Below, in pieces: positions 3,001-60,604 of a DNA stretch of 64,000 bases (positions within the stretch are counted from its first letter, which is position 1; each line of letters starts with the position of its first letter). Source of the stretch: Ornithodoros turicata (lineage: Eukaryota > Arthropoda > Arachnida > Ixodida > Argasidae); NCBI RefSeq assembly GCF_037126465.1, contig NC_088209.1:2046001-2110000 (forward strand), in the 5' to 3' direction. Made by a program: the position numbers and the translations under genes. Below the pieces are notes generated by a model. The model made no database searches and was not told where the DNA came from. It was given only the letters and a program-made list of their open reading frames with translations.

Positions 3001-3385
3001 AACGCGTTCATGTCGGTCGAGTTCAGAGGTTTCCGGCAAAGTTGAGACCCGACGAGGTAAAAGAAATAACATGTTGCATGTCGTATTCAACGGACCAAAA
3101 AAAGAAAACACTCGTTTAATTATTAATCTGTTACGATATTATCTACATTCCCTAATGAACATTCCAGACGGGTTGCAAGGAAACATAGCACTATCAGCCT
3201 CCGCACATCGTGCCGCTTAACATGCGCACGTTCTTGCAATGCCGTTTCCGATCACAGTCGCGGCTATTTTCAATATATGTATTTTGAATATTAACTCATG
3301 TGCAAGAAATAATTGACGATTACACTTGGAATTGGCCTTGAAATAAACTCCGAATAGCCTTAATCATGAGTGAAGAACAGGTTCT
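1..3385. other. Non-coding flank, nothing recognised
   Basis: No reading frame here resembles a family I know, and open frames are short on both strands. Base composition is mixed, with a T-rich run near 2535-2580. No tRNA- or rRNA-like structure was seen. It may hold old repeats too diverged to recognise. Confidence 0.5.
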
Positions 3386-3563
3386 CTATCGTTCTTCGAT
3401 CCCCGGCTTTGCGATTCGCCTTCAGTGCTCTCCGATTCATCCCAGATCGTGGGGCTTTGCCAATCACAAACCGGTAAGCTCTCAGTGTGGCCAATCGAGC
3501 TCGTGGCCTGTCATATTCAAGCTTCAGAGGGATGCCAACAGATGGCGCCCGCATCGGCACTAC

Positions 3564-3596
3564 CTAGAGTCACTGTACCCGGTACAGTTACTCTAG
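3564..3596. mobile_element. 33-bp palindromic insertion in the repeat
   Basis: A near-perfect palindrome (CTAGAGTCACTGTACC, one central C, then its inverse with one mismatch). CACTAC occurs on both sides (3558-3563 and 3597-3602). Copy 2 of the host repeat has a single CACTAC and no palindrome, so this is an insertion with a 6-bp or slightly longer target duplication. It may be a collapsed MITE reduced to its two termini. Confidence 0.65.
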
Positions 3597-3826
3597 CACT
3601 ACCTCGAGCGGAAGTAAGCTCGATCGTGGGTGGCTTTCGATTCTTACTAGCAGGTCGCAGTGAGTCTCGCTGTTTCCCGTAGACTAAGTTCATTCTTTTC
3701 GAAAGAAAAGTGCTGCACAGGTCCATCACCAGTTCTTAAATACATGAGAGGTCCACGGCGAAAAGAATGTGAAAGGGTTGCACTGCTTGAACTAGTTCAG
3801 GGCCGGGGTGCAGGCGAAAAGAATGG

Positions 3827-4056
3827 GGGGGGGGGATATGTTTATTATACAAAAAAAATTAAGAGGGAAAGGTTAGCCACCGCTATGGCGGCTTGCTATT
3901 CCCAGGAAGGAAAAAAAAATAAAGGCAAACAAAAAGAAAAACAAAGAAAAAGGGGAAACAAACAAACATAGGAAAACAAATAAACAAAAGGAAAAACAAA
4001 TAAACAAAAAGAAAAAACAAAAGAACAAAGAGGAAAACAAACACAAAACTGGTCAC
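3827..4056 (-). mobile_element. 230-bp retroposon insertion with 10-bp TSD
   Basis: AAAAGAATGG flanks the segment at 3817-3826 and 4057-4066, and copy 2 of the host repeat has one AAAAGAATGG with nothing inserted. Read on the minus strand the insert runs from a T-rich tract into a unique segment near 3880-3900 and ends in an AATAAACATATCC-like stretch followed by C-rich sequence. That fits a 5'-truncated LINE or SINE cDNA in reverse orientation. The parent family is not identified. Confidence 0.7.
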
Positions 4057-4513
4057 AAAAGAATGGACCTACTATGAAGGGGACCAAAAAGTAACTATGA
4101 AAGTGAATTTGCGTGACCAAAGAAAGCCCTGCCAAGAGGCGGAAGCAAGCTGAAAATGGACTGAAGAAAATGTAAACTACGAGAGAATTACAGTGCGGCA
4201 GAATGAATTGTTTATTTTCTTCATGACAGCGAAAGACGGTCCCATAAACATGCTTTCGCTTATCGCAACATATGACCAATATGGCCGGCAGGTGACTGTC
4301 AGATTTAACGCGGTAATGTGTTGTACGAACACCCCCCTCCCCCCCCATCATGGAACACACTCGCCCACAAAACAGAACTTACTCAGTTACTGTCTACAAC
4401 CTACAACGCTGCACATAAGTAGATGCCGGTTCGCCGTTGAGATCGGTCACATGATGTTATGACGTCACGGAAAGATGAACGAAAAAACGAATCTTTTGAA
4501 CGGTTCAGTGAAC

Positions 4514-5434
4514 ACCCCTGTTACACCCTTCTGGGCAAAAAAAAAGTTTGCATGGGGGCGTTATATGGGTGTAGTAGTTACGGAGCCTGACCGTGAGGGT
4601 GTATCTGTGGCTACTGGTGTGAAAAGGGTGTAACTGAGGAAACTGTTTAACATTGTCCTGGAATATGAATGTCGTGTACGCTGAGTTTAAATTTTCCCTC
4701 ATACCAAAACCAGTAAGAAAAACAGACATTATCTTGATGCTGAGTTGATACTCCAATGAATTCCTCACTTCAGTGTTTTTTTGTGCATATAACCAAATTA
4801 AACATCGACACCTCCCCCTTCAGTTTGACTGGAAGGCGAGCAGGGCTATCAAACTTGCAGACGCGCGTATGACCAACAATGTACATAATATATGTTTTCT
4901 TTTTGAAAGTGAATGCCTTTCTAAGCGTGCTTTTGGTTAGTTATGCCATTTATGTGATGTTCCAAATTTATCACTAATTTTAAGCGCGTACACCCTTATC
5001 TGCATAGGAGACCGTATATTGGTCCAATATGTCTCCTGTACGGAATTGCTATAGGGAGAATTTGTCCACAATGCGTTAAATTTTCATGTTATGCATTTAC
5101 TTTGGTTGGTTCGCATGATGCACTCTCTCTGGAAACAAAGCTGCACACTTTACGTCATTGTTTAAGAGTGTTGATTTACACCGAAAATAGAATCAGTTAC
5201 GGTACCACTTTAGTTACGCCCCAGATGGTGTCAAATTAGCACATGTCCTGAGAGGTGTACTTCCATCTTAAGGTGTTGATTTACACCAACAAAGTAATCA
5301 GTTATGGCATCATCCAATTACACCCAAGAAGGTGTATAAAATTTGAGAGTGCAGAGTCACAGGAATGCGTTGTTATTCTGATCTGAACAGAAGCCCTAAA
5401 CGTGAAGACAAGCAGGTAAACTGACAATGAAGAA
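4514..5434. repeat. Repeat-rich stretch with GGTGT/TTACACC units
   Basis: No gene is seen. Degenerate units containing GTTGATTTACACC, AATCAGTTA and TTACACCC recur at about 5168-5240 and 5270-5340. Related TTACACCC and GGGTGTA motifs lie at 4520-4630, partly inverted. The arrangement looks like subterminal repeats of a non-autonomous DNA transposon, but clear ends and a TSD were not found. Confidence 0.4.
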
Positions 5435-6673
5435 CTATTGCCCAGTGATGGCCACCAACTACTTCTACAGTAGTTTATCTATAACTACTAACTACTTCGA
5501 GATGGAGTAGTTTAACTAGTAGTCCAACTACTTTTCAGGGGAGTAGTTAAAACTACTTCTTTAACTACTGCAATGTAGTTTAACTACACATATAACTACT
5601 TAACGTTATCCATCAACACCAATCCCTTGTAGTGTTCTTGGACACCTAAATATGAATCACACGCAATGATAAACTTTAGCTCAAGCCACTGCTACGATCG
5701 TCAAATACAAAGCTTGCGGCGGGATTCTTTCTATGCCTACGCGATAAACTAAGTTGCATAATTATTTCACAGCAAATGAGGCTTGACAACAGTGTTGCGG
5801 ATTTAAATCCGGGGATTTGAATTAAATCCATCAAAGGGCTCAGGGATTTGATTTGGGATTTGGTTTACGAGGAAAATATGGCGACGATTTGGATTTGGAT
5901 TGAATCACGTGTTTTTCGACGGAATTTGATGTGTATTTTGTCAAGCTCCTGAAGGAAAATAGTTGGATTTTGACTGCTGCGAAATTTGACGTTGACGGGC
6001 GGGCAGATTCTTTGTCAGTCGTATCTGAGGCCGTCTCTGTAATTACGTTTTTACAAGACATTTGGCTGAATTGCATTTCACATATGTTTACACATGATGC
6101 AATGCAACTCTTAGTGACGAGAAGTTCTAAAAAATGTTTGGATTTGAGATGGCTTGCCTTACATCCCGCCATGTCGGTTCCCAATGTCCCGCCAAAAGTT
6201 GTGTTTCGTTTAAAAAGAAATCCCATGATTTTTTGATTGCGTGAAGCAGTCTACGGACACTGTTTGTACAGACTGTTTCAAGTTTAAGAGCTGGTTTGTC
6301 TGTCAGATAGACCACCTCGGAGGGCCTATAGCCATCTTCCCTTCCGAGCACTAAAGGTACGTCATGCAATACTCTCACACATAATCACATGGGTAGTTCG
6401 ATGCCTAATTCACAACGGTATCACAGCTTTCTATAATTTCTTAGAAATGGAACGCATTGGAGAAAGCACACCACTGGTGCACTGAGCTCAGGAAATGTGC
6501 GTTCGAGAAAAGGACTACCATACACGTATTTTGTCTGTTTTATTTGTTCTGGTGTCCCAGAGATTCCTAAAATAAGTCCCGAAATGTCCACATGAGAACC
6601 AGTCGCATGAGGTCATTGTGTCCAGGAACAGGAATATGAATGTTGGTTGCCCTTTTTCATAGTGGCTTGCTTA

Positions 6674-8039
6674 AGCAAGCCACAGATATCCCAGCGATAT
6701 CCCAGTAACATCCCGGCGTGGATGTTCGGATATCCCAGGGATTTGCCCAGAAAGCCCGTAGAAGTCCTTTGTACATCCATAGGACTAGCAAAAGACCCGC
6801 TTTTGTACGTTCCAAGAACGTCCTATAAATATCGCGACGGGATATTCGGACGTTCAGAGGATATTCCCGTTTGCATGCTTCTTGTCGTTTGGAATATTTA
6901 TAGTTGTTTATGCTGACATTCACCCAAAATGAAACAAGAATATGCTGTAACATATTTTTTATTGTACCACAAACATAATTTTTTGCAGTGTATCGTATAA
7001 CATTTTTTAACATAGTTACGGGTGCAGAAACTCAAAATCCTGTCACGCTCAGCTTCTCACTGTCCGCTCGGAACGAGAATTGCCCTGTTCCCGATTCACT
7101 TCCCGTTCCCTTCCACTTTTGTTGCAATAAAGCGTAACTATAACAGAACTAATAACACACTTCACGTAAGATTTTGAAAATATGGAAGCAGGATTGCGGG
7201 GACGTTCGTTAGGCCTAAAGTTTCGGATTACAATTCATCTGCATAGCTCACACACAATTCCTAGTTTGTTTTACACACAACTGTGGAGAGGAACATTTAC
7301 ATTGTTTGCTGCAGGATTCATTCTTGTTTGGCACAAACGGAAATGGATTCTTGAGAAGCACAACCACGAGCACCAATATATACACATCGTACATCCCGCT
7401 CCAAAGCGGTAGAGTGGATTGTGGCGGCGGTAGCTTGCGCCCCCTTGCCTAATAAAGCGTTAGGTAAGCGGTGGAAACTGATGACTTTTGTGTACTCGTA
7501 TGTAATAAACCTACCAACACATTTTGCGATCACGTAATCGACGCATATCGCACTATCGCCGTCTTCAAGCAAACCCGAATGAACCGAAGGTTTTAGTGGT
7601 TAAGTGCAAATGGGACTTTTACGAACGAAGAATGGACTACGGAGGCCATCTTCAGTCATGTTGTGTACAAAACGATCAGAGAGTTGGTCTGAAAAAAATA
7701 TCAGGAATATATCGGCGATTCTCAGAAGAGTATGTGATGCCACATTCCCTTTCTCGACCAAGTCCAGAAATATCTATCACCACTGCTGCACATGTACTCA
7801 CGCATAACACTAGGATCAAGGAAGAAATTCACCGTACGTAATGCAAAATAAACAATTCTTATTCATAATTAACATAGTCCGGGATGTCCCAGGGATGTTC
7901 ATAGGATGTTGAAATTTTGGAACGTCTGCGACGTATTTGGGATCATGTCATGGATGTCCACTGGACGTGCGGACAACATTGCGACATTCGAGACGTTCGC
8001 GACCTATTCTGGACGTCCATGGGATATTAGTGGTTTGCT
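6674..8039. mobile_element. DNA element C nested in element B
   Basis: Left end AGCAAGCCACAGATATCCCA and right end (inverse) AGCAAACCACTAATATCCCA form imperfect terminal inverted repeats. GGGATATCCC and GGATGTCC motifs recur for about 200 bp inside each end (6690-6870 and 7880-8025). The interior shows no convincing coding region. The superfamily is uncertain; a CACTA-like origin is possible because CACAG/CACTA lies within the termini. No clear TSD was found. Confidence 0.6.
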
Positions 8040-8162
8040 GGGTTATGGCCAACTTGGTGCCACCCCAGAACTCGTACCGCAAGAACGAACGACGGAATAA
8101 TCCTCTATTTAAGCGAGTGTACAGTAAAGGATGATGTTGTTTCCCCTCTCTGCTATTTATTG

Positions 8163-8348
8163 TCCGTAGTGGCCCGCTACCCGCTGCTTTCGGAAGTAGC
8201 GAAACATGTATTTGCAGTACCTGCAAGTTCTGGAGCAGTTGAACGAGTGCTCTCTGCAGCCAGCCTGATCAAGACCGCGAAAAGGAACAAGCTGCAGCCA
8301 GCTACATTGGAGCAGCTGGTCTTTCTAAACAAGAACCTGAGAGAATAA
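8163..8348 (+). pseudogene. hAT transposase C-terminal dimerisation domain (fragment)
   Basis: The open stretch encodes about 60 residues with the classical hAT C-terminal pattern: YPLLSEVAKHVFAVPASSGA, then VERVLSAA, then a basic stretch ending in LEQLVFLNKNL. In this family the region mediates transposase dimerisation. It ends in TAA at 8346-8348. The upstream catalytic part is not recognisable, probably lost or displaced when element C inserted just upstream. It lies inside hAT element B and in the orientation expected for its 3' end. It cannot make a working enzyme alone. Confidence 0.85.
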
Positions 8349-9212
8349 GACTGCTTACGCGTGTTGGGCGGATGTATTATTGAGTTTGTTATAACACAAC
8401 TGCGGTGCGCAGCACGTAGCCGTCACATTTAACACAACATAATTTCCGGCAGTTGGCTTTATAATATGTACCGAGTAAGCGTATTTGACAAATATGTTAT
8501 TCCGATATCCACGTGAAAATAAAATGTCAGTGTCAACGTTGGCATCGCTATGTTGGCTGTTCATACTCTTCGCTGCAGGTGAGATTTATAGGGGTTTATA
8601 CCATGTCACGGTCTTATCCAGCGAATGCATGCAGTAATCGTACGACCTTGTGGACATGGTCAGCTGCATGCTACAGTTATTTCGGGAACTTTAGCCCCCG
8701 GATTCGTTGACGGATTTGATGAATCCTGATTTAAAACCGGATTTGATTTAGCACACCAAAAACAAATCCGGATTTAAAATGATTTGATTTGTCGCCTCAA
8801 GTTTAAATTCGGACTTGATTTGGATTTGATTTGCGGTGTTCCGAAAAACATGGATTTGATTTAAATCCGATTTGACTCATTAAATCCGCAACACTGCTGG
8901 ACAAGCATTAAAAGTGACGACTTAGTACATATGCACGACACAAATGCTCTGCACCTCCGTTCTCATCAAACAAGTAGCTAAAGGTAAAAGTCGGAACCAC
9001 AACCGTGCCGCAAAGCTTGCGGCAAAATCGGAAGTATAGTTTCCGCCTTCAATAACCTAACTACTGTAGTTAACTACTTGAAATAGTAGTTTGACTAGTA
9101 GTTGCCACTACATTTCTGCAAGTAGTTGATAACTACTTTCTAACTACAATCTGGTGGTTTAACTAGTAGTTTAACTACATGTAGTTAACTACTGGCCATC
9201 ACTGCTATTGCC

Positions 9213-11367
9213 ACACTGCATTGGTCCGCTAAATGTCTGCTTCGCAAATATACAATTTTTAGAACGCTATCTTAATAGCAATGACATTTTCTCATTACAC
9301 CCTTATGCAACGGAATGTACTGGAGTCTTCGAGACGCGTCGCCCCTTTCTGTGTCGGCAGTTATGGCGCGTTAACTCTCCTTCTGGGAGGCAGGATGCCA
9401 GCCCAGTTTTACCTCGATGTGTATCAACGCGTATTTCGCGCTTTAGTCAAATTACATTTTTACTGAGTGCGTTCGCTTCTGGGTCAGTTTCTCGTTCGAT
9501 TGATACGAAACATTTATACTCGAGGCACGAAATGTTTGGGACTGCAGGGAAATGACAATCACCGAACCTGCAACCATAGGCGCGGACTGTGTGGGAGCCC
9601 TCAGCCCTCTTCCTGGAACTTAACCATGGAAGGCCAAGCCACCTCCGAGAAGTATACCCTGCAGAGGGTCAGGATGACCTTTAAGAGCCATATCCGACAA
9701 ATCGAATACTTCATGTGAATGACCATGAAGAACAAGAAAACGCCTGGCAGAATGTGGTGTACCGCATTCCGTTAAAGGGACTCCGACCAGAAGTTGTGAG
9801 AGCTCTTTCGTGCTCGCAGTCGATAAAATACCAAACAAGGACACTCCAGGCGAAACTTCGCGCATTGAAACCCTGCGGTTTCTCTAAACTCGAATTTTAA
9901 ACATTCGACTTCATTCGAGTGCAGCATGCCTAACGTGAAAGTGAGAAAACACACGTGTATGTATCCACCTCAGTCCACCCTCAAAATGACGTCGACATGA
10001 GGGCCACTAGGTACACTCACAATTGGCTTAAACTCATCACGTGTTCACGCTATGCCCTGTCCATTTCCTTCGTGAAATGGCATATATATGATAATATGTT
10101 TTTCGTTACAGTCCCATAAAGAAAAATATACCATGCATTTAACACCTGCAGTAGGTTCTACGATTGTATTTTCAATCTGTGTACGGCGTTCCATATGGTT
10201 CCGTATCTGGTCAGCTGTAATGGATGCCATATGACGACCTTGCGAACTTGTGTGATTCACGGCTCACCCTGCCTTAGTCAGGTCATCGGTTGGTGTTGCA
10301 GTTCTTCGCCATATTCTGAACGTTTTACCTGTCATTGAAGCGTACTGTTCTTGATCAGCCGCGAAGCAACGAGCCGCAAGGGCAGTCACTCGCCTCTGCG
10401 AAATTCTGGATATCAAAGGAGTTTTGGGACCTGATAATGTACTGCAAATGCTGCAGTTGAATTCTTCGAATCTTCATCTAAAGAAACCAAGTGCGCTTTC
10501 CTGTGTTTCTGACGGAAAAGTTCTTTAAACAAGGTTAGCACATTTATTTTTCAGTTTTAAGTCTACGCACTGAAAACCATGCAAGTGCATCCGATCATTC
10601 TCGTAGCTATTGTGTAACACGTATGCTTTCTTACTCAACCCACAGAGCCCTCAGCTTCATGAACCCAGTTACACTTGATGTAACCTTTCTGAGGCTTCTT
10701 ACTAGGCTGTGCTGCTCTGAAGCATTGATATGGCGCAGGATTGTTGTGGGTGCACCTCTGCTTTCGAAAGATGAAACACTCATTCCATGCTGTGCTTTTT
10801 GGCTCAGGCTCGACGCGTTTACAAGCATGCAACACATCTTTTCCAAAGTAACCCTGCGGTACTCGCACTTTGAACAGCAACATGCGATCATATTGGTTGT
10901 AGCACATTTTAGCTTAGCCGGTGTCCCAACAGGAAGACACGGCTTCGCACCCAGTTATTCAATAAAAAAGTTGCAGCTACAAGCAACGAAAAGTTAAACA
11001 AATTGTGAAAGAAAAAATTCCGCTAGGCCTAACAGTAGAGCACGTCTTCGTATTGCCAACTGTAGGATGGGACAAACGAAAGCTTGCCCACATCACATTT
11101 CAAAAATACTACTGCTCTCGCCCTAAAACGAAGAGCAATGCACATCATCTTACCGCCTCGTCGTCTTCCTGTACCATTGTATTGTCATCAAGCGGGAGAG
11201 CTACCTATGGAGGTAGTCCCCTTTGGACAGACACTAATTTAGTTTACAGTCCTACAAGCTAGATAACAACACTCTTGGAGAGTTTGCTTTTCGTACTGAC
11301 CATACCAAGCGAACGATCCAAACACGGGAGAGCCGCTGCAGAGTTCAGTACGGTCCGAACGAGCTGG
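9213..11367. other. No gene recognised
   Basis: Open frames near 9610-9900 and 10630-11000 show no family resemblance, and no splice-consistent gene could be built. No terminal inverted repeats were noted. Confidence 0.45.
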
Positions 11368-31535: not shown

Positions 31536-32790
31536 GTACCGACTAACGAACTCATCAGTGCACGAACTCTATCAACTGCTTGAACTCAAGAAGCAAATAG
31601 ACAATCGTGGTAGCCCGTTTCCTTCCATGCAGCAATTACTGCTTGCGCTTCGCTACTTTGCGACAGGGTCGTTCCAAATTGTGGATGGCGACATCGTCAA
31701 TGTAAGCCAACCAACAGTGAGCCGGTGCGTCGCTATAATGGCAAGTGCAATCGCTAACCTGCGCCAGCGATTCGTGCTGCTCTCGAAGTCAAGTGATATG
31801 GCAGCAGTGAGATCAAGATTTCACGCAATTGCTGGCTTCCCTGGAGTAACAGGGTGCATTGACTGCACGCACGTTTCTATCTCAAGTCCGGGTGGAGAAA
31901 TGGCGGAGCTATTTCGCAACAGAAAAGGAACCTTTTCAATTAATGTCCAGATAAGCAGGTAGTTTTTTAGAACCTAAACTTTGCCCGGGCACCAAATCTA
32001 TCGCAATGCATTGAGGGTTATACATATGTTCTGTGTATGATTGATTTATGAACACTGTAGGAAGAAAGAGTAAAATGAAATGGGCATATATGCGAAATGA
32101 TATCCATATCATTGTGATGTGCATCCAATGTAGTGTGCTGCTTTATCACATCATCCTTAACCATTAATGAAACTATTTCAGGTAGTCTCTGGTCCCAACC
32201 TGGAATTTTTTGATGTTGTAGCCAGCTGGCCGGGATCAACACATGACAGCAGAATCCTGCAAAATAGCAGGTTTGGGCACCTCTTGCACACAAAGCAATA
32301 TCCTGGAATTATTCTTGGCGATGCTGGATACGCATGCACGTCATACCTACTCACTCCTCTTCAGTCACCACAAACTTCCAGTGAGAAAATGTGTGTCACA
32401 CGTTTTAACAGACTGTGTTGCAGCGTTATAATGTTGTCCGTTGTTATTGGCAACACTTCTAATTGTGTTATAAGATTATGGAGACGTTTTTTTCTCCACG
32501 ACAGGTACAACAGGGCCCAAACCACAACCCGCAATTCTGTGGAACGTGCATTTGGGGTGTGGAAAAGACGGTTTCCTTGCCTAAGAAGTAAACTGTGCAC
32601 AAAGCTCGACACAAGCATTACAATCATTGTGGCAGTGGCTGTCCTGTACAACTTCGCACTACAGAGAAGGGATGGACATACTGATATAATCAGTGCAGTT
32701 GCCCTCGAAGAAGACAATGTTGATCCCCCTGAACAGAATGATAACTTGGGCAGTGCATTTAGGCGTGCATTTATTCGAGAACACTTTTAG
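31536..32790 (+). pseudogene. PIF/Harbinger (HARBI1-like) transposase, probably dead
   Basis: Exon A (31536 to about 31950) begins after a CTTAG acceptor and reads SMQQLLLALRYFATGSFQIV, a helix-turn-helix VNVSQPTVSR, then GCIDCTHVSI (first catalytic Asp). Exon B starts at 32182 (VVSGPNLEFFDVVASWPGST), with GDAGYACTSYLLTPL (second Asp). A 118-bp in-frame stretch (about 32391-32508) looks like a normal intron, after which YNRAQTTTRNSVERAFGVWK supplies the catalytic Glu. The 5' splice site expected after NVQ reads CAG-ATAAGC, apparently a G-to-A change of CAG-GTAAGC, which should block correct splicing. The N-terminal exon is missing or unseen. Confidence 0.83.
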
Positions 32791-35700
32791 GTGACAGAAT
32801 GTTTTTTCAATAATATATCTTCCTTGAGCTTTGCATTTCTCAGTTTCTGTCTCTGTCGCTGAAGCTTCACCTCCATAACAGATTTCACATACTCCATTTT
32901 CAAGTGATGTAGTTCCAGCATGGCCTCTTTTTCTGCTGCAAACTTGTCCAGGCGAGCTTTAAGATCTGACTCCATCACATCAGAAGCAGCGAGTCGGCGC
33001 CGCTTACTTGTAGATGGCTGCTCACCCTCTGTAAAAGTGAACATGTTTTTACACTGCAAATCTTGCACGTCACACACAATAGTGATTTTTCATGGCCTGT
33101 AATGGAAACCATGTATGTTTGAATGAACTGTGCACATTTGTGGTAACCTGTCATTATTGACATGTGTCTAAAGCTGAAGCAGCAAGGACCCTGATGTCGG
33201 GGGTGAACAGGTAAAAAAGAGGATATCATTGAACATTTGGGGGGTTGTGAGAGGGGCGTAAGGGGTCCGATTAAATTATAGATCGATAAGTTACCCGTCA
33301 AGTCGTTATGAACTAAGTTACCGTGTGAAAAATATAGTCGCTTCGCTTCGGGTGCTTCAGCCCGAAATGTAACTCGCAGTTACGAAGTTACTTGAAAAAA
33401 AAAAAGAACAACCCTTATGAAAATTCGTATAGTCGTGTTTCAGACACTCTATAGACAAAAGTCGAAACAGGATACAGACAGGGTATAGACTGGAAATAGA
33501 CTTCCTTTGGACTAGCCTTCAGTGTTTCTTTGTCCCCCTTTTAGCTATTTGGCACCTACTCGCTATAGACCATTCTCAACAGAGGGGCTATAGATTCTAC
33601 TGCCACTCTATAGCCTTATCTTTTTAGAAACGTTTCAGACTTTTATTGCCACTTTTATTAACTTTCGTGCAAATTTACTCTTTTTTTTATATTAACTTGT
33701 CACCCCATAATAGTGACGAAATAAGAGACGCTCATCCACGCAGTGTATAATGTAATATAGTGACAGTGCATCCACACGGACAATAACGTTACATCACTAA
33801 AACACTTTTATTTTGATAGCTTAGCTAGCATTGTTGCAAGACTCCCCTTCACTCTGACTGGGTCCGTCGATGTCTTCTTGCATGCATAGCCTGTAAAGTG
33901 GGGCAGCATTAAATAAACATATAACGATCGAATGCCGTGTGCTTACATAACTTCAATACAAGTCAATTCTCCGTCAGCGCTTTCAAGCGCTTGCATGAAA
34001 CATGAACAAAACAGCAGGGTGAAAGCGCCGTCCGCATAGCACGCAACTATCAACAAAAGAACTTTATATGATGTACGTACCAATCACAGCGTCTACCCTT
34101 GTTTTGTCCAGTGCCGACCTTGCAGGCTTGTCCTTGTGGGCGTTGCTCTGGACACCAAAAAGTGTCTTCCCCACAAGCTCATCAGGGTGGAACACTACTC
34201 GCATGAGGGACCTGGAAAGCCTGGGCATTGCGGATGATAGTTAACGCAAGATGTAACACAGATAAACATGGGACCTGGGATACTATACCGAGGTCTTACC
34301 TTGTTCCGTCCCCTCTTGCGCCGGCCTCCACCCTGTGCAGAATCCCGGCGTCCACAAGGACGCCAAGTCCAATGTCAACCTTTGGGCATAAGGGTAAACC
34401 GATGAGAAAAGACATGTTCGGATGCTGGAATATATCATTAAAAGCTGGACTGATATCATTAAAAGTTATGTGGTACTAACCTTTCGGGCCGCAACAACAG
34501 ACGCCGTCTGTTCCATGCGCTCTCGCATTCGTCCTGCATGGAATATGAGAATTAAATGCCTAAAAGCTAAATGTAATGATTCTGCTCTTAGTAAGCGGAA
34601 CTTTTGAGACATACCAATCTTGTTTCTCGACTTCTGTAGTTTCCTGCTGAGAGTTGCGTTCTCCTCCTCCAAAGCACTGACCTTCCTCTTGTTCTTCTCA
34701 CAGCGCTTGCACTTGTCTTTTGGCAAATGCTGCGTTCAGAAGTTTGTTCGCCTACGTAATCCTTCCATAAAAAAATAGAAAAAAAAATAGCGACGTGCCG
34801 ATAATGCTGGTCGCTTCCGGGAAGACAATGCACACAGCTCTGCTGTGCGGTCAGTGATAGAGAGTTGGTTACCTGATCATAGCTACTTCCGCACGCGTCT
34901 TCAACGACTTGGATCGCTTTTAGCACCTTCAATCGTTTCCGTTCCAAAACGTCGGCATCACCTAAAAAGATACAGAAACATCGTATAAGTCCACGCTATA
35001 CAGCTAGAAAACTTCAACTCGTGTGCTCCATTCTCTGGTGACACATACATATTCCCCACAAAAAAAAAGGGGGTCGCTTCCTTGTAGCTTCACCATCGGA
35101 CTGCTCTCCTCCTCCAGCGGGGAGGCATCTTAAATACTTTCCCCGAAACACACTTGACTACAATATGCATTATTAAGCAATAAACCTTCATATCCCGCAA
35201 TGAGCACTTACCAGCAGCAACGATGAAGGCCTCTGTAGGCTCTTCCTCTAGGTCCCATCGCATGAGGAGCTTCTTTCCCTTCAAGTTTACGGCGCTGTCC
35301 GGGTTGTGGATAAGCTCCAAACCAATGTCCACGTCCACTACTCGTTCAACTGGATAGACGTCCATTAAACTGATTCCTGGCCATTTTACCAACACGAACA
35401 TTTTTTTCCGGAATCGTAAAATGCAGTGACGCCGAGCCGCGTGAAAACTGGAATATGAAATATGGCGGAGCGCCTGTCAAACTTTCAAACGCAGAATGAC
35501 AAGTGTCAATGGGTTAACTATCCGAAGCAGCAAAATGTACTGAAACTCGAGTGCAATGGGCCTGTTGCTCTGGGCCAGGTGGCGCGAGTGAGCAGCAACA
35601 TCAGCGCCCCAAATCATGCAACACTCCCCAGTTTAGCAGACGACGGGGCACTTCCAAGTACACGGTTTCGAGTTGTTCGCGCTTTTCAAGAAGCACCGCT

Positions 35701-38700
35701 TTTTCTGTTGATTTCCTACAGGTTTTGTAGCTTCCTTGGCACCATACCGTTTGACACACCGTGCAAAACCCGCTGATGGAACTCCTTACTGTTGGGATCC
35801 GCGGCCGTTTGGGCCCGAAATGGCGCTGTGTAAACTTCAGTGCAACAGCCCTATAGGGGTGGACGGTATGTGTCTTATCAATGTTCTTTAGTTTCAAGAG
35901 TATGTTCAAGGCCTTCCATCTACCCGTCCACCCCTACTGCACTCGACTTTCAGTACATTCCCAAGCAGCAAAATGTACTGAAAGTCGAGTGCAATAGGGG
36001 TGGACGGGTAGGTGGAAGGCCTTGAACAGACTGATGAAACTAAAGAACATTGATAAGACACATACCGTCCACCCCTATTGCACTCGACTTTCAGTACATT
36101 GTGCTGCTTGGGTTGTGCTGCTTGGGATAGGTCGACCGGTCATCCACGTGTCAGAAAACTTGGCCTTGGCCTTTGTGATCGCTTATCACATGTGTTATTC
36201 CCTCGATGTTTGCCGTCGGGGACGACAAGGAATACGGAGAAGAGTTAGCTTGTGTTCTTTATTCGTGAACTGAAGTGTTTTTGAGGGAACAGAAACTCTG
36301 CCTGTCATATTTTCGCCGAATATGTGAACTGCGGTCGGCGATCGGGACGATGCCAAAGCAGAGATATCGGACGTGGGAACTAAGCACAGATAACCATGTG
36401 TCAAGAAACACGATACAAAAATGGAAACGAAGAGGCGTGCAATTCGAGGAGTACTCAAGATTCTGTGTCCCTGGCCCTACTTCTTCGAACAATGCCACCA
36501 ATGGCACCACTACGGGATGCGAGGTGACAACATCCGAATCAGCGCCCGCCTATCCTTTCCCGAGCTCAAGTGATTCCAGTTCTTGCAGTGCAGGCTCAAC
36601 AGAATGCTTCTCAAGCTCCACGTCTGTTTTCAAAGATCGTCCGGAGGACAATCAGCCGTCGGTAAGCCTATTTGATATGCTGTATTCTTGTTTATGAATG
36701 CACTGTTTGCTTACGTTTCTAAAGTGTTCACTGGAGGAGGCGTTTTATTTAAACTCATACAAGTATTTATTCCTGCATTCCAAAACAGTAGCCACATTTA
36801 CGAACCAAATTCACGTCACTTGCAGGTCCTGGATAGTTCAGATGCTTCCAGTGAAGAAACAGACGACGACATCTCGACCGCGCCTTCGTCATATTGCGAT
36901 GACAGCAGAGCAGCAGATGACAGCCAGAAGCTTGTAAGGAACTTTTTTTGTGCCTGGTGGGCATTCCAAACTTCATTTGCATAACTGTGCTCAAGAAACA
37001 TACCTGCAGACAGCCCTTCGCTGTTTGATGTTTGAGTTGTACCTCTGTAAACATTTTAGAATGAGAATAGTGGGGGCATTGGTACCTTGCAAACTGATAT
37101 TTCATATCAGAGAAATACAATGTGTTGTGTTGTTCTCTTGTTTCCTGGCCTCACCTTCTACTATGTTAATTGATATTTCATAATCTGCCTCTGTTCCAAT
37201 GTATACAACTGACAACTGGAAACTATACTTTCTGGATATGCAACTTTATGTTTGGGCTTGTGAAGCATAGGCGGCGAGTTTACATTTATAGGTTTGAAAC
37301 GGCCAGAGTACATGGTGCGCTTTCCGTTTTGTGATTCAGTTGTGTTATAGACAGTGTCAAGTGTGGGTGCATGAACCTCTCAGGGGGCACACATTCTGCC
37401 TCCCCTCCCTGACAAATGGAAAATAGAAGCCTATGAATTGTGAAGTGTCATGCAGCCAGTATATAATATTCTTATAGTACTTGTGCTAGACAAAGATAGG
37501 GGTTAAAATGCGAGTGAGTTTTACGTTGTTGACATGCAGGCACTATAGGTTGTCTTGCAGGCAGGGCAACAAAAACGTTGAGACGTTGCTCATGTGGTAA
37601 AACAATTTTCATTTCCAGGACAATCCACTGTATGATGGCTGTCGTCTTAGCCAAGGTGCAAGCTTACTGCTGATTATGGCACACATCCTCAAGTACCACG
37701 ACTCGAAAGAAGCTACAGAGAGCTTGCTGAAAGTGATTGAAGCCCATCTGCATGAAAGAACTGAGTTTCCATCCACGAAGTACCTGTTTTTTAAGTACTT
37801 CGCTGCAAGTAAAGATTTGCTCCAGCCGCATTTCTATTGTACCTGCACGAACTATCTCTGCAGAGAAACGTCAGATGAATCTCTACCTCACCTTGGCCTG
37901 AAGTGTCAGCAGTGCGGAAGAGAAAATAACAAAGAGGAACTGCTTTTGTCGGGCCAGTATTTCATTTTCTTAAGCCTCGACGTACAGTTTCGTGATCTCA
38001 TGGAACGGAGCGAAGGCCTCATTAGGCCGCGTCAGCCAGCGACCTATGATGTGGGAGATATCATGGCCAGCCCAGGATACAGGAAAATTCCCCTTCAAGA
38101 CAACGACATATCGTTCACCTGGAGCACGGATGGCGTGCCAGTCTTCGAGTCGTCTCAGTACAGCATTTGGCCTCTGTTGCTCGAGGTGAACGAGCTGCCA
38201 TTCCGGGAACGAGTGAATAACCAAATACTTGCAGGACTTTGGTTTGGATCTCAGAAGCCAAACATGAATAGCTTCCTGAAGCCCTTTGTTGAGGAAGTCA
38301 ATGTGCTATCAAGGAATGGTTTCACATGGACGACACAGGCTGGACAGCAGAAATGCTCAAAGGTGTACCCAGGGCCCTGTACTGTGGACAGTATTGCAAG
38401 ATGTTCAATGCTAAACATGTCCCAATTCAACGGAAAGCACGGGTGTCCCTGGTGTGAGCAGGAAGGAGAAGTCGTTGGAGTTGGAAATGGACACGCAAGG
38501 GTGTACCCTGTTTCTGAAGAGCAAATGGTGGAAAGAACCGAGGAAAGCATCAAGTACCACGCGAAAAAAGCAGAAGAGAGCGGGGCACCTAGTATTGGTG
38601 TAAAGGGTGCAACGGTTCTCTTCCTTTTGTCATTCTTCAGTATCACGTCATATTTTGTTGTGGACTATATGCACGCTGTGTGTCTTGGTTTTGTCCGAAC

Positions 38701-41700
38701 CACTGCTTGCACGTGGTTTAGTGCGAAGGATCCGCATAAGTACAACATCGGAGCCAAGGTTGAAGAAATTGATTTAAGACTCCAGGGACTTAAATCAGTG
38801 TGGGAATTGTCCAGACTTCCACGGTCTGTTAGACTGTGGAAATACTGGAAGGCTTCGGAGTGGAGAAACTTTCTGCTGTTTTTCTCGCCCATTGTTCTGA
38901 AGGACATCCTTCCCAAGAAGTATTATAAAAATTGGCTTAAGTTTGTGCAGCTAATGCACATCCTTCTTGGTGAGAAAGTCTCTCTCCACAGGTTGCCCAT
39001 TGTGCGACGTGAACTGGTCAACTTTCTTTTTGAGTACCAGACATTATATGGCAAAGCGAAAATGACTTACAATGCTCATCTTCTGGTTCACATGGTGGAC
39101 AGTGTCCGAACGTGGGGGCCATTGTGGGGATACTCCTTGTTTGCTTTCGAAGACATGAATGGAAGGCTTCTAAAGTGCGTACAAGGAACTCGCCATGTAG
39201 GAACACAAGTGTGTGAGAAATACTTGCTATCCGTCAACCTGCCAAAATTGTTGTCAAATGACACAGCTCAACAGGGACATATAACAGAACTTCTCGATAG
39301 CTTTATGAAAAGTTTCAGACGCCACAAATTTGTTGCACATTCTGCAGGTATCCTTCTCTATGGCAAAGGGAGATTGGAAGGAACAGATGTTGAGTATAGA
39401 AAGATGTCTCTTGGCTCCCTCACATTCTGTGTGGAAACTCTGGACAGATCTTGTCGGTGGAACTCTTACGTGTTAAGTAATGGCGTATTGAGTAGGTTGA
39501 CCAAAATAACAGCATCTTGCATAAAGCATGGGAACCTACGTGACTGCTGCTGCTGCAAGCATGTTGTATTACAGGGCAGATCATACAAGACAACAAGGAA
39601 TGTACTCTCAGTATTGCCAAGAGAAATTGAGTGTGGCATATTGTTTGAAGTTGAACCCACAGATGAAATAGTGGACGTGGAACCGTCTTCGCTGAAAAAA
39701 TGCGTGTTTTTAAGTGTAGGTGGCAAAAGCTTCATGTGTGTACTCAACGACAAGCTTGCTATTGAAGCCAACTGAAGATTATCCCCGTGTACTTGGACAG
39801 TACTACCCCACTCTGGCAGTGCTTTCATCATCTTTGTACGGTTAGCTGGACATTTGCCATTAGCGCTGCCACCCATCAATTGTGTATTAAGAGTTGATGC
39901 ACAATGCAATTTCACAGAGCATGCATTCATACATATTAATTGTATATAAGACTGACTTGTATGTATTGGCTCCTGTATCAATGATGATGGAACATAATAA
40001 CAGCTAATTGAATTGTTCTGCAGTAGTGCTAAATTTTTGTGAGAAAACCCACGTTCCGTGTCACAGCCACTACACAAGGAAATCGAAAAAGAAACACATG
40101 TGTCATGAACAAAAGCCATGCCACACTTGTCGTTTCCCTAAGTACACCGAATAAGTACAATGGCCATTAATAGGAATTCCACACACGTGGTCGTTCTAAT
40201 TTGGTTTGTTATAGGCAATATTTCCCTGTCGATCAGCAGATGTCGTGGTAAAATATGCTTGTAGTCGTTGATGGCACTTAACGACAGAGGTAGTTCAACT
40301 GTTCCACAGTAGTGCTAAGTTTTTGTGTGAAAACCCAAGATCCGTGTCACAACCATTACACAGTAAACACCAAGTAAAGTAGGACGGCCAATTAAGCTCC
40401 ATACATGTGGTGGTGCTGATTTGATTTGTTAAAAGCAATATTTTAGCAAGCAAAGCAAAGCACAAACAACCTAGTTTTATATTCTATTAGAATTTTTAAA
40501 ATTAAAAAGCATGTCACACTGAGCCAGGGATATTAAATATATCACCTTAGAATCAAAGAAAAACAAACTTCAAAGGCGGTCAATAGACGTCCTTTGGTCG
40601 AGCTGTTTGGACACCGGGATAAAATGAAGTACAAACGTCGTCTATAGACAATAATTGGACATATGTCCAAAGGAAGTCAAAGTGCAAAGGAAGGCCAAAC
40701 GAGGCAAAGGACGACCAAACGGCGTCTATTGACGGGAAAAATTCATTTTCGTAAGGGAAGTTACTTCCAAGTTACTTCGGACAAAATAGCACTACACAGA
40801 TAGCGTGCGTGAGCAACCTTGAATTGCCTGTGGAGGAGTGCAACACGCTTAGCTTTTGTTTGTGTCCAACAATTTGAATGCTTTGCATCTTACTCCCTGT
40901 GGGTGCACTGTTCAGATTCATTTCAATGGCAGTCGTTCTTACTTCCTGAATAGATTACTGTCATTGATTCAATACCACGTTTCATGCCATAAAATGCCAT
41001 GAAAGAACAGGAGAGAAAGCAAGAAAATATGTGGACGTGGGTGAAGAGCAAATTAAAAGTAATTTGGCACTTGGCTTGTTAACCTGGCAAAGTTACCTGA
41101 AAAAGAAACGAGTTCCTCTGAAAGTTACCAAGGCGCAAAAGTACCGAGTTAAGTTAAAAGTTACAAAAAAAGGAACCTAGTTACTTGTAACGAGTTACCT
41201 CGAACTCTGGATTAAATCACATCACTGGATGCTCTCCACTTCATGTCAAACGTAAAGTATAAAATGACACGCAGTAATTGTGAAGTACCTCTGTGCTCGG
41301 TGGCAGCTGGGCCACAAAGTAGAAGTGTGTCGTCTTCATGTTGGTGCCGCACCGATACGCCTCCTGCTTGGATTTCTTGCACCTTTTGTGAGGATGAAAA
41401 AAAAAAGCCTTCTGTGTTATGCATTGAGTTGCATGCTATACTATAAACCCCACTCAAATGATGCCTCTGAAGCTGTTCAGGGTAACAGCACGACCTTACC
41501 AACCTTACATTTATGTAAGAAGGGAGTTGCCTCAGGACAGAAGCTTTTTCGGCTTCTGTCCTGAGGCAACTCCCTTCCTACATCTCTACCGGTTCGCTGG
41601 ATTTCTACCCATTTACATTTATGTAAGTTGCTCTTGCCCAATTTTCCATTTTCAAGCCTGTTAGGGAGACACCGTGATTTTCAAAAAGCTATTGTGACAG

Positions 41701-57665: not shown

Positions 57666-60604
57666 TAATTAATTAAATTAAATTAAATCAAATCAATTTT
57701 TATTGTCCTTTTGGTAGGACGAATAGCTTCCAATTATTATGTTTTTATACATGTACTGGTAATGTGCAAGCGAAACGATTATGTGTATTCAACGTAAGTT
57801 TTGCCACCACCTTTCACCGTTTGATCCGGCCACGAAGATCAGGCGGACAGTCCGATCTCTGAAGGAGGCGCCCCCTCAAAAGAACCCTCTCGCGGCCTTG
57901 GCTATCGTTAAGCGTGTAGACGAAAACACGCTTGCGACGGACTTCTGTGTGGTACTAACGACTCCGGCGGCTGCCTCGACCACGCCACTACACCGCAGTT
58001 TTGTATACAGTTTGACGGCTGAACTTCACCAAGACTGGCCCGGTCCCCCGGAAGTTATGGACCGCGACTTCACACTAATCGAGCTAAAGGCAGCGTTGAA
58101 GCTTGTGAACGCCGGCTCGTCCCCTGGGCCCGATAAAATCACCTATGCCGCCCTACGAAACCTTGACGGGCGGTCACTCCAAGCTCTCCTTCATGTCTAT
58201 AATACGTCTTGGCAACAAGGATTTTTACCACATACATGGAAGGAGGCATTGGTTGTTCCCATCCTGAAACCAGGCAAGGTTTCAGGAAGGCCCACCCCAA
58301 ATGCCCTATCCTCCTTTCGCCCGGTGAGCCTGACAAGCTGTATGGGGAAACTGATGGAGAGAATGGTTTTGCATCGCCTCGACTGGTGGCTCGAAAAACA
58401 ACGTGCGTTCCCTCACGAAATGGCTGGATTTCGTCGCCACCGAAGCTCCATGGATCCAGTTCTCGACTTAGTCTCTACAGTTCAACATGCTCGTGCCCAT
58501 CGACGGATCGTCCGATCGGCTTTCCTCGACATCAAGCACGCATATGATACCGTCTCGCACATTTGTGTGCTGCACGCCTTGCGCTCGTTTGGAGTATCCG
58601 GTCGGCTCTTCATCTGGCTCCAAGACTTCCTTACGGACCGAACTGTCGCTGTCCGTACGTCCCAAGGCCAAAGCCTTCAGCATCCCGTTCCTCAAGGAGT
58701 CCCCCAAGGAAGCATTCTCAGCCCGACACTCTTTAACGTGGTGATGGCCGGCCTACAATCAGTAATTCCTCACGAAGTGTCGTTCTCCGTGTATGCAGAT
58801 GACGTCGCCCTTTGGACAGTAGGAAAATCACGCCCAGCTTTCCAGCGCCGCCTGCAGCTCGCTTTAAACAATATCCATACGTACCTCACGCACCTCGGTA
58901 TGGACCTTTCACCCGAAAAGTGTGTCGAGCTCCCTTTCACGCGTAAAGCTATGGCCAATTTCCCTCTTTGGCTTGGTACAAAGAAGCTTGAACCGGTACG
59001 CTTTCACCGCTTCCTTGGCGTGGTAATCGACTCGGACTTGCGCTGGGCTTGGCACATTAAACACCTTGAAACTAAAGTGCAGCGGTGGCTCCCCGCAATT
59101 CAACATCTTTCTGGCTCAGGATGGGGCTGTGATCAGCGTTCCCTGCTCGCGGTTCACGCGGCATTGGTGAGGGCAACTGTGCTTTACAGCCTTCCTAATC
59201 TGCACAGGATATCAACAACTTCATTAAATACACTTCGGTCCCTGTTTGCTCGAAGCCTTCGTCGATGCCTGGGAGTTCCAAGAATGGCTGAAACACGGCA
59301 AGTACTGGCTGAAGCTGGTGAGCTCCCGATTGAGGTTCTCCGTCAACGGGAAACGGCTCGGCACTACCTCCGTTTGCGTGCTCACATTCTCCGCCACCCG
59401 CTCCTCAGGAAAATTCGATACCGCCCTGAAAGCGACTTCTATCGAGTAGCACAGAGGACACGCCAGACTCTCACTGGCTTTATAACTAAGGACACTATAC
59501 CGCCGGAAGCCCCCTGGTCTCTACCGGTACCGCCCACTTTTGTACGCCTCCCAAACCTTCTGGAAAGAAGAGATCAGGTCCCCCTTCAAGTCCTCCGAGC
59601 CCATTTTCATGCTCTGGTAGACGAGAAGTTTTCTACGTTTACGGCAGCATATACCGATGGCGCATCCCGAAACAACAAGTCCGCCTCAGCATTCGTCATT
59701 TCATCCGAAGGCGTCGTGCACGGAAGACGCCTTTCACATCCAACCTCCTCCACAGCTGCGGAACTCTATGCCATCCTTTTCTTTCTACAACACATATCTG
59801 ATTTTACACCCCGGGAATTGGCAGTCTTTACAGACTCCAAATCTTCACTTCAAGCAATTGAAAATTCCGGCATACGAGGCCCATCCGCACCCCTAGTCAT
59901 AGATGTACCACACTATCTACGCCGCAGGCTAGTTCTCCAGCGGGTTCCAGCCCATTGTGGAGGCGTGGGGAACGAGCAGGCCGACAGCACCGCAGAAGCA
60001 GCACTCTCGTATCGGAAACGGACCCGTATTGTTCTGCTGAGAGGAGACCGCCGTTGAATTCTGCGACGCCTAGTGACACCCCTGGCTTCCCGCCAACGGG
60101 CAACCGACATTCTTCCTCCCTCTATGTTGAGCAGAGTTGATCCAACGCTCGCTTTCCGCATGCCACGAAACACCCCTCGTCAAGATGCTGCATTAATCCA
60201 CCGAATGCGCCTCGATGTGGCCTTTACAGCTCAGTGGCGTTACCGCTTGAGACAAGTTGACTCTCCGACCTGCTGCCACTGTGGTGCTCTTGAGGATCTG
60301 GAGCATATTCTTCTTCATTGCCCTCACTACCAACCTTCCCGAACCACACTCTCCGAGTCTCTTCGTCAGCTCGACTCTCGCCCTTTCTCACTATCGAAAT
60401 TGCTTGGTCCCTGGCCCAATCCAGCCCAGCAACCCTCTGCGCTCAAAGCTCTTCTGACATTTCTGGACACCATCGGACTTCGATCGCTATTGTGAAAGGG
60501 CTCGTTATTTTATTCCCCACATCCCAACCAGCAATGGGGTAGAGTATCGCCTGCGGTGATGAAACTCCCCATTCTCCAAGGTCGAAAATAAAGTTGTTGT
60601 TGTT
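57666..60604 (+). mobile_element. I-like non-LTR retrotransposon, 5'-truncated
   Basis: The 3' end is a (GTT)n run at 60591-60604. GTAGTCAA is found at 57658-57665 and 60605-60612, a plausible 8-bp TSD. The first about 110 bp (57666-57775) is AT-rich and looks like the inverted 3' end of another retroposon (CAATAAAAATTGATTTGATT on the minus strand). A second, shorter copy of the family is at 49453-49599. Confidence 0.75.
57781..60495 (+). pseudogene. I-like ORF2: reverse transcriptase, RNase H, CCHC end
   Basis: One frame of 905 codons is interrupted only by TGA at 60055-60057. RT motifs are in order: SSPGPDKITYAAL, FRPVSLTSCMGKLMERMV, FLDIKHAYDTVSH, PQGVPQGSILSPTLFNVVM, the SVYADDVALW catalytic box and FHRFLGVVIDSDLRW. 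RNase H follows with its four acids visible: AAYTDGASRN, STAAELYAI, VFTDSKSSLQAI and GNEQADSTAEA. After the stop come MRLDVAFTAQWRYRLRQVD and the zinc motif CCHCGALEDLEHILLHC. RNase H indicates the I/Tad group rather than CR1. Endonuclease and ORF1 are absent. The annotated ATG is only the first in frame, not a proven start. Confidence 0.88.

Follow-up and report, generated by a model that had tools for sequence, protein, structure and literature searches.

Plant CACTA transposons encode two proteins, TNPD and TNPA, both of which are required, and TNPA binds the subterminal repeats of the element; plant subfamilies have differing subterminal repeats alongside dissimilar TNPA-like proteins (PMC2613891, PMC1636069). 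The animal TRC elements have CCC ends and show 2-bp direct repeats at the insertion site, and the study of SmTRC1 reports second proteins that resemble neither plant TNPA nor other TRC elements (PMC1636069). The present analysis concerns a 64,000-nucleotide stretch of the genome of the tick Ornithodoros turicata (NC_088209.1, positions 2,046,001 to 2,110,000; the window), in which a transposon of 7346 bp at 33412-40757 contains two genes, a transposase gene on the right and a divergent gene on the left encoding a small protein with a BEN domain. The element is probably a two-gene animal CACTA transposon in which the BEN protein is the counterpart of TnpA and binds family-specific subterminal repeats. 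To our knowledge no TnpA counterpart has been identified in animal elements of the CACTA superfamily.

Related copies were collected from one genome, the window's own (1.07 Gb, 379 contigs). The search with transposase exon 3 gave 62 scored matches listed of 3001 first-look candidates. The 26 other loci that were compared, designated by L numbers (W denoting the window element), comprise the 20 best non-self matches and six hand-picked lower in the list, and are thus not a random sample. The ends of the window element are as follows:

33410..33411, no strand: left copy of the 2-bp target-site duplication, AA (from the sequence)
33412..33424, + strand: left terminal inverted repeat, CCCTTATGAAAAT (pattern search; same end type in related copies)
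40745..40757, - strand: right terminal inverted repeat, CCCTTACGAAAAT, as read on the - strand (pattern search)
40758..40759, no strand: right copy of the 2-bp target-site duplication, AA (from the sequence)

Across the whole window the terminal pattern has just two matches with zero mismatches, at 33412-33424 and, inverted, at 40745-40757. Both ends were found in nine of the 27 regions (W, L009, L016, L018, L020, L022, L024, L025 and L027). The 2-bp target-site duplication matches in seven of these nine (W AA, L009 GA, L018 GA, L022 CA, L024 TT, L025 AA, L027 GT) and fails in L016 and L020; for L018 the matching one of two candidate left ends was taken, and without this element the count is six of eight. 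With a probability of 1/16 for each match, seven out of nine has a chance value of approximately 1e-7. The element ends read CCCTTAY, with a CCC core at both termini; the literal CACTA ends and the 3-bp duplication by which plant En/Spm elements are recognised are absent.

The transposase gene consists of three exons:

36350..36661, + strand: transposase exon 1 (open reading frame and splice reading)
36826..36933, + strand: transposase exon 2 (open reading frame and splice reading)
37619..39775, + strand: transposase exon 3, with the Transposase_21 domain (Pfam, residue map)

These exons join in phase across GT-AG introns to encode 858 residues with no internal stop. Exon 3 matches PF02992, Transposase_21 (tnp2), with an E-value of 1.7e-7 and 31.1 bits, above the cut-off of 28.6. 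Residues D311, D397 and E651 are predicted to form the DDE triad, with CPWC (416-419) and HLLVH (627-631) as CxxC and HxxxH motifs between the second aspartate and the glutamate, which is the order of D, D, CxxC, HxxxH and E described for the group to which this transposase belongs (PMC12730594). The segment VDYMHAVCLG, starting at residue 488, fits the box A motif [LVI]DX[LM]HX3LG defined for eumetazoan TRC elements (PMC1636069). Conservation among the 27 copies is high, with the first aspartate present in 25, the second in 26, CxxC in 26, HxxxH in 25 and DYMH in all 27, while the catalytic glutamate is kept in 22 of the 22 copies listed, of 27. Because of its CCC ends, its 2-bp duplication, a Transposase_21 domain with the ordered residues and the eumetazoan box A motif, the window element is assigned by sequence to the CACTA superfamily as an animal element of the TRC type, and not to En/Spm in the strict sense.

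The second gene has seven exons on the opposite strand, running from 35401 to 33811:

35212..35401, - strand: BEN exon 1, conserved N-terminal region, start ATG at 35401 (splice reading, alignment, profile)
34873..34961, - strand: BEN exon 2 (splice reading)
34615..34729, - strand: BEN exon 3, weak matches to coiled-coil families (splice reading, Pfam)
34481..34533, - strand: BEN exon 4 (splice reading)
34300..34379, - strand: BEN exon 5, start of the BEN domain (splice reading, alignment)
34081..34211, - strand: BEN exon 6, core of the BEN domain (splice reading, profile matches)
33808..33890, - strand: BEN exon 7, end of the BEN domain, with the stop codon TAA at 33808-33810 (splice reading)

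The introns are of the GT-AG type and the exons join in phase, giving a protein of 246 residues. By itself the window protein scores 18.3 bits against the BEN family, under the Pfam cut-off of 23.2, and matches BEND6 with an E-value of 0.12. Of ten aligned family members, however, all ten match PF10523 at E-values of 0.1 or below (best 3.6e-8), and a profile of the ten sequences matches the solved structures of BEND6 (1e-8), Insensitive (7.8e-6) and Bsg25A (0.0029). These matches rank ahead of those to coiled-coil proteins, which are confined to the middle part of the protein. Several related BEN exons lie above the curated cut-off on their own, i.e., L032 (31.7 bits), L027 (29.3), L025 (29.1), L024 (26.9), L020 (26.8) and L022 (26.7). 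The BEN assignment, weak for the window protein alone, is thus firm for the family as judged from these profile comparisons. The N-terminal exon is strongly conserved, with K6, W7, D14, V15, Y16 and W49 invariant in the ten aligned sequences; a Pfam search of the window protein gives no match in this region, and the fold predicted for exon 1 as a single sequence has a mean predicted local distance difference test score (pLDDT) of 47, too low for interpretation. The middle of the protein is probably helical.

A preliminary description of the element, made from the window alone, had reported matching ends, subterminal repeats, a three-exon transposase of 858 residues with three acidic residues and a divergent seven-exon BEN gene of 246 residues joined in phase without lesion, and all of these are reproduced here. 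Its designation as a CACTA element holds at the level of the superfamily but not for the termini, which are CCC, and its impression of an apparently intact copy is correct for both genes and the ends but not for the intergenic region, which holds a nested insertion at approximately 35521-36127.

The pairing of the two genes is not restricted to the window. BEN exon 1 is located upstream of the transposase, on the opposite strand, at 23 of the 26 other loci (44-96% identity), or 24 of 27 when the window is included. The exon was located with a profile and a splice-aware aligner, and ten of the 24 positive regions were themselves rows of the profile; the window BEN protein alone gives the same picture. 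Scores range from 158 to 308, against 67 at most for wrong-strand or shuffled comparisons, with the exception of the inverted duplicate in L031. In a plain tblastn search with the window BEN protein, 18 of 20 regions have the gene on the upstream side in divergent orientation (in L023 the first exons only). The BEN domain itself lies inside 21 of the 27 regions; in addition, a Pfam BEN exon is found 7.1 kb upstream of L030 and another 10.1 kb upstream of L031, where the assignment is ambiguous since a second, inverted transposase copy is closer to that BEN exon. BEN exon 1 was not found in the approximately 6 kb read upstream at three of the 26 other loci (L026, L028 and L034), and in L026 and L028 the transposase exon is damaged by stops and frame slips.

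A wider sample, comprising 122 transposase loci pooled from several genome searches and 138 Pfam BEN exons from 150 scored candidates out of 390, gives a similar picture. A Pfam-visible BEN exon lies within 15 kb upstream and on the opposite strand at 53 of the 122 loci, whereas the other arrangements occur at three (upstream, same strand), none (downstream, opposite strand) and one (downstream, same strand). Viewed from the BEN side, 52 of the 138 exons are upstream of and divergent from a sampled transposase within 15 kb, one is upstream on the same strand, one is downstream on the same strand, and 84 have no sampled transposase within that distance. Both counts are lower bounds, as the number of candidates scored per search is limited to about 60 to 150, and PF10523 as the only screen undercounts by missing weak BEN genes, including that of the window.

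Within the nine elements that have both ends, the BEN gene is always inside the termini, with 0.3-0.7 kb between its 3′ end and the left terminus. The elements L020 and L022 align over exactly positions 288-9865 in both regions, i.e., 9578 bp at 99.0% without gaps. Because this match runs end to end, includes both genes and lies in different flanks, the gene pair moves as a unit.

These observations bear on the possibility that the two genes are chance neighbours, or that a separate BEN-bearing element has inserted into the window copy. A nested insertion does sit between the genes in the window, as such a reading would have it. Yet the same divergent arrangement recurs at dozens of loci, L020 and L022 match exactly from end to end with both genes included, and 52 of 138 BEN exons fall in the upstream divergent stretches of transposase loci, although these make up no more than about 0.17% of the genome. 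On these grounds both alternatives, chance adjacency and a separate insertion, are rejected, and the likelihood left to them is negligible. The pairing is supported as a kept property of the element rather than an accident, and the evidence for it is stronger than in the preliminary description. The latter had named two findings that would speak against its proposal, i.e., copies without the BEN gene and BEN sequence present as an independent insertion. Copies without BEN exon 1 are few, being the three loci listed above, of which two have a damaged transposase and the third, L034, an open one; independent insertion is contradicted by the divergent loci and by the L020/L022 pair. For its further suggestion, that many tick BEN-domain genes may be transposon-derived, the 52 of 138 exons beside a transposase give a lower bound in this genome. 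Two of the unpaired exons were inspected, and one (L035) has transposase pieces at the expected position; for the other, L036, which belongs to a repeated array on contig C58, the 5 kb read upstream contain no transposase.

Some BEN exons and transposases are further duplicated. Contig C58 contains six BEN exons in one orientation and contig C197 contains four, apparently as repeated arrays. L031 (contig C2:51666856-51674982) is an inverted duplication in which both strands carry BEN exon 1, with a further copy of the transposase at C2:51676324 in the opposite orientation.

To compare the histories of the two genes, distances and trees were calculated without L023, which has a partial BEN gene, and without L026, L028, L030, L031 and L034, which have no BEN domain in the region read. 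BEN and transposase distances are strongly correlated, with r = 0.91 for 21 elements and r = 0.83 for 15 non-redundant elements (0 of 10000 permutations in each case). The two trees agree in outline and conflict at two places. In L010 and L011 the transposase belongs to the group of the window element (support 100/100) and the BEN protein to the group of L014 (100/99). In L018 the transposase belongs to the L014 group (100/99), and the BEN protein lies outside it, nearest to the group of the window with modest support (73/85). In approximately unbiased (AU) tests the alternative placements are rejected (p = 4e-39, 4.5e-9, 1e-6 and 2e-56), for groups that were defined once the trees had been inspected. 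The conflicts would be most simply explained by recombination between elements in the intergenic region, through which two lineages swapped BEN partners, each element keeping one BEN gene.

Comparison of ten pairs of elements from different families indicates how the genes have been maintained. Synonymous divergence (dS) is saturated in these pairs (1.5 to undefined), and for the BEN domain it exceeds 1.7 or is saturated in every one of the ten. The nonsynonymous divergence (dN) of the BEN domain is 0.11-0.16 in six pairs and 0.17-0.49 in four, that of the whole BEN protein 0.25-0.62 and that of transposase exon 3 0.19-0.46. Because amino-acid change is limited while silent change is saturated between families, both genes are judged from their substitution patterns to be under selective constraint. 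A BEN gene captured from the host and carried as a passenger, with no function for the element, would be expected to decay, and the occurrence of some genomic BEN exons with no transposase nearby in the sampling made is the one observation that favours such an origin. The gene is, however, kept beside transposases down to 44% identity, and the limited amino-acid change between families largely rejects a passenger, which we regard as very improbable.

The regions next to the termini contain short repeats:

33425..33625, no strand: left subterminal repeats, with units of the CTATAGAC / CCTTTGGAC type (end comparison, motif counts)
40575..40744, no strand: right subterminal repeats, including the palindrome GTCTATAGAC at 40640-40649 (end comparison, motif counts)

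In the window element the terminal 250 bp of the two ends together contain eight copies of the motif TWTRGAC, whereas the interior rate predicts 0.07 and the highest count in 300 shuffles is four. Corresponding terminal counts and interior expectations are 6 and 0.08 in L009, 7 and 0.15 in L016, 11 and 0.33 in both L020 and L022, 10 and 0 in L024, and 13 and 0.05 in L025. The ends of L027 have, in place of TWTRGAC (0), the motif CTGTWGA (7 against 0.36 expected). The palindrome GTCTATAGAC is present as a single copy near an end, and not in the interior, in eight of the nine complete elements, and is absent altogether from L027. The patterns were picked after inspection of the ends, which makes the counts descriptive rather than a blind test, and there are fewer independent cases than elements counted, since W, L009 and L016 belong to one family and L020 and L022 to another.

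The layout as a whole resembles that of the plant elements, with a TnpD-like transposase, family-specific repeats and a small protein with a known DNA-binding domain, and for this reason we infer that the BEN protein binds the repeats. The right-hand gene would supply a DDE transposase, for which the CCC ends are the expected cleavage sites. The product of the left-hand gene, which is divergent, would be a small protein whose N-terminal region is conserved, whose middle is probably helical and whose C-terminal part is a BEN domain. This protein most likely binds the subterminal repeats of its family at the two ends, and it may do so as a dimer, since one of the kept repeat copies is the palindrome GTCTATAGAC. 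The bound protein would then help to assemble the ends for the transposase and would regulate the element, as TnpA does in plants.

The main competing view is that the BEN protein is a regulator or an anti-silencing factor, dispensable for cut-and-paste, which for example acts on the intergenic region or recruits chromatin proteins. BEN domains are cited as predicted recruiters of chromatin-modifying factors (PMC11075544), the two genes are divergent with a shared region between them, and plant TNPA also acts on its own promoter (PMC1636069). The motif, however, is concentrated in the terminal 250 bp and not in the interior, which includes the intergenic region. A purely regulatory protein is a possible but less probable explanation than a TnpA-like partner.

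Several observations weigh against the TnpA-like interpretation. Other BEN proteins act as chromatin and transcription factors, and this is also compatible with a regulatory role. The apparent exchange of BEN partners in two lineages indicates that the pair is not locked one-to-one, and in nine of the ten between-family pairs transposase exon 3 evolves more slowly than the BEN protein taken as a whole. Six pairs of recent copies, with few differences, give no clear constraint in either gene, a pattern that decaying copies would produce. In L034, exon 3 of the transposase is open and BEN exon 1 is missing from the region read. At 69 of the 122 transposase loci the Pfam screen, which also misses the BEN gene of the window, shows no BEN exon within 15 kb. 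Finally, the ends of L027 carry neither TWTRGAC nor the palindrome.

The intergenic region and the surroundings of the element contain other repeats. One of these lies between the two genes:

35521..36127, no strand: nested insertion between the two genes, rearranged into a long palindrome (comparison with L009, L013 and L016)

Its arms are 107 bp long and 95% complementary, and it is longer than the version in L009 and L016, which is a related inverted-repeat element of approximately 0.15 kb flanked by TA; L013 represents the empty site. At 32161-33089 of the window a piece of a Harbinger-type transposase is found on the + strand (DDE_Tnp_4, E-value 4e-22), next to a charged open reading frame on the - strand without a Pfam match, and the CACTA element sits beside or inside this Harbinger-type element. 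Repeated units resembling AGTTACTT flank the CACTA element at 33280-33400 and 40758-41200; they are perhaps parts of another repeat family that served as its insertion target. Further away, at 57763-60054, the window contains an uninterrupted retroelement open reading frame of 764 residues with reverse transcriptase and RNase H domains (RVT_1, E-value 1e-31).

The retention of a BEN protein in many element lineages of a single animal genome provides a candidate second protein together with putative DNA sites for it. Transposon-borne BEN genes would be a source for lineage-specific BEN expansions, and caution is needed when BEN genes are counted in genomes rich in such elements. A bolder extension would be that BEN is a required second transposition protein of animal CACTA elements, recognising family-specific subterminal palindromes, that partners are traded by intergenic recombination and that the repeated release of such genes supplied many animal BEN regulators, BEN being a transposon-born DNA-binding domain; we consider this extension unlikely as a whole. 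The word BEN does not occur in the main text of PMC12730594, nor in that of PMC10027918, a study of transposon-derived transcription factors in animals. Among the literature matches listed, covering titles and the beginnings of abstracts of open-access reports, with Repbase and subscription papers outside this scope, no report places a BEN gene within a DNA transposon, whether CACTA or of another type. A search of viral contigs confirmed no relative of either protein.

Among known systems, PIF/Harbinger elements also carry an extra gene, which encodes a Myb-like protein, a family different from BEN. Like BEND6, Insensitive and Bsg25A, the window protein has a C-terminal BEN domain, as indicated by the profile matches to the solved structures; unlike these proteins it is encoded inside a transposon and has a conserved N-terminal region without a Pfam match. 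Fungal TET/JBP-bearing EnSpm elements and others similarly have an extra gene that travels with the transposase, although the protein families differ (PMC12730594). With plant En/Spm, which encodes TNPD and TNPA, the window element shares a related transposase domain, the presence of two element proteins, subfamily-specific subterminal repeats and a small partner with a DNA-binding domain (PMC2613891, PMC1636069). It differs from En/Spm in its CCC rather than CACTA ends, in its 2-bp rather than 3-bp duplication and in a partner that is a BEN protein from the opposite strand and not a splice form of one transcription unit. The closest resemblance is to the animal TRC elements, i.e., SmTRC1 of Schistosoma mansoni and the Aedes and Tribolium elements, with which it shares the CCC core, the 2-bp repeats, the Transposase_21 domain, box A and CxxC; unlike in these elements, its second gene is separate, divergent and BEN-bearing (PMC1636069). 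An animal CACTA/TRC element with an additional protein is therefore of a known kind, whereas the BEN partner appears to be new.

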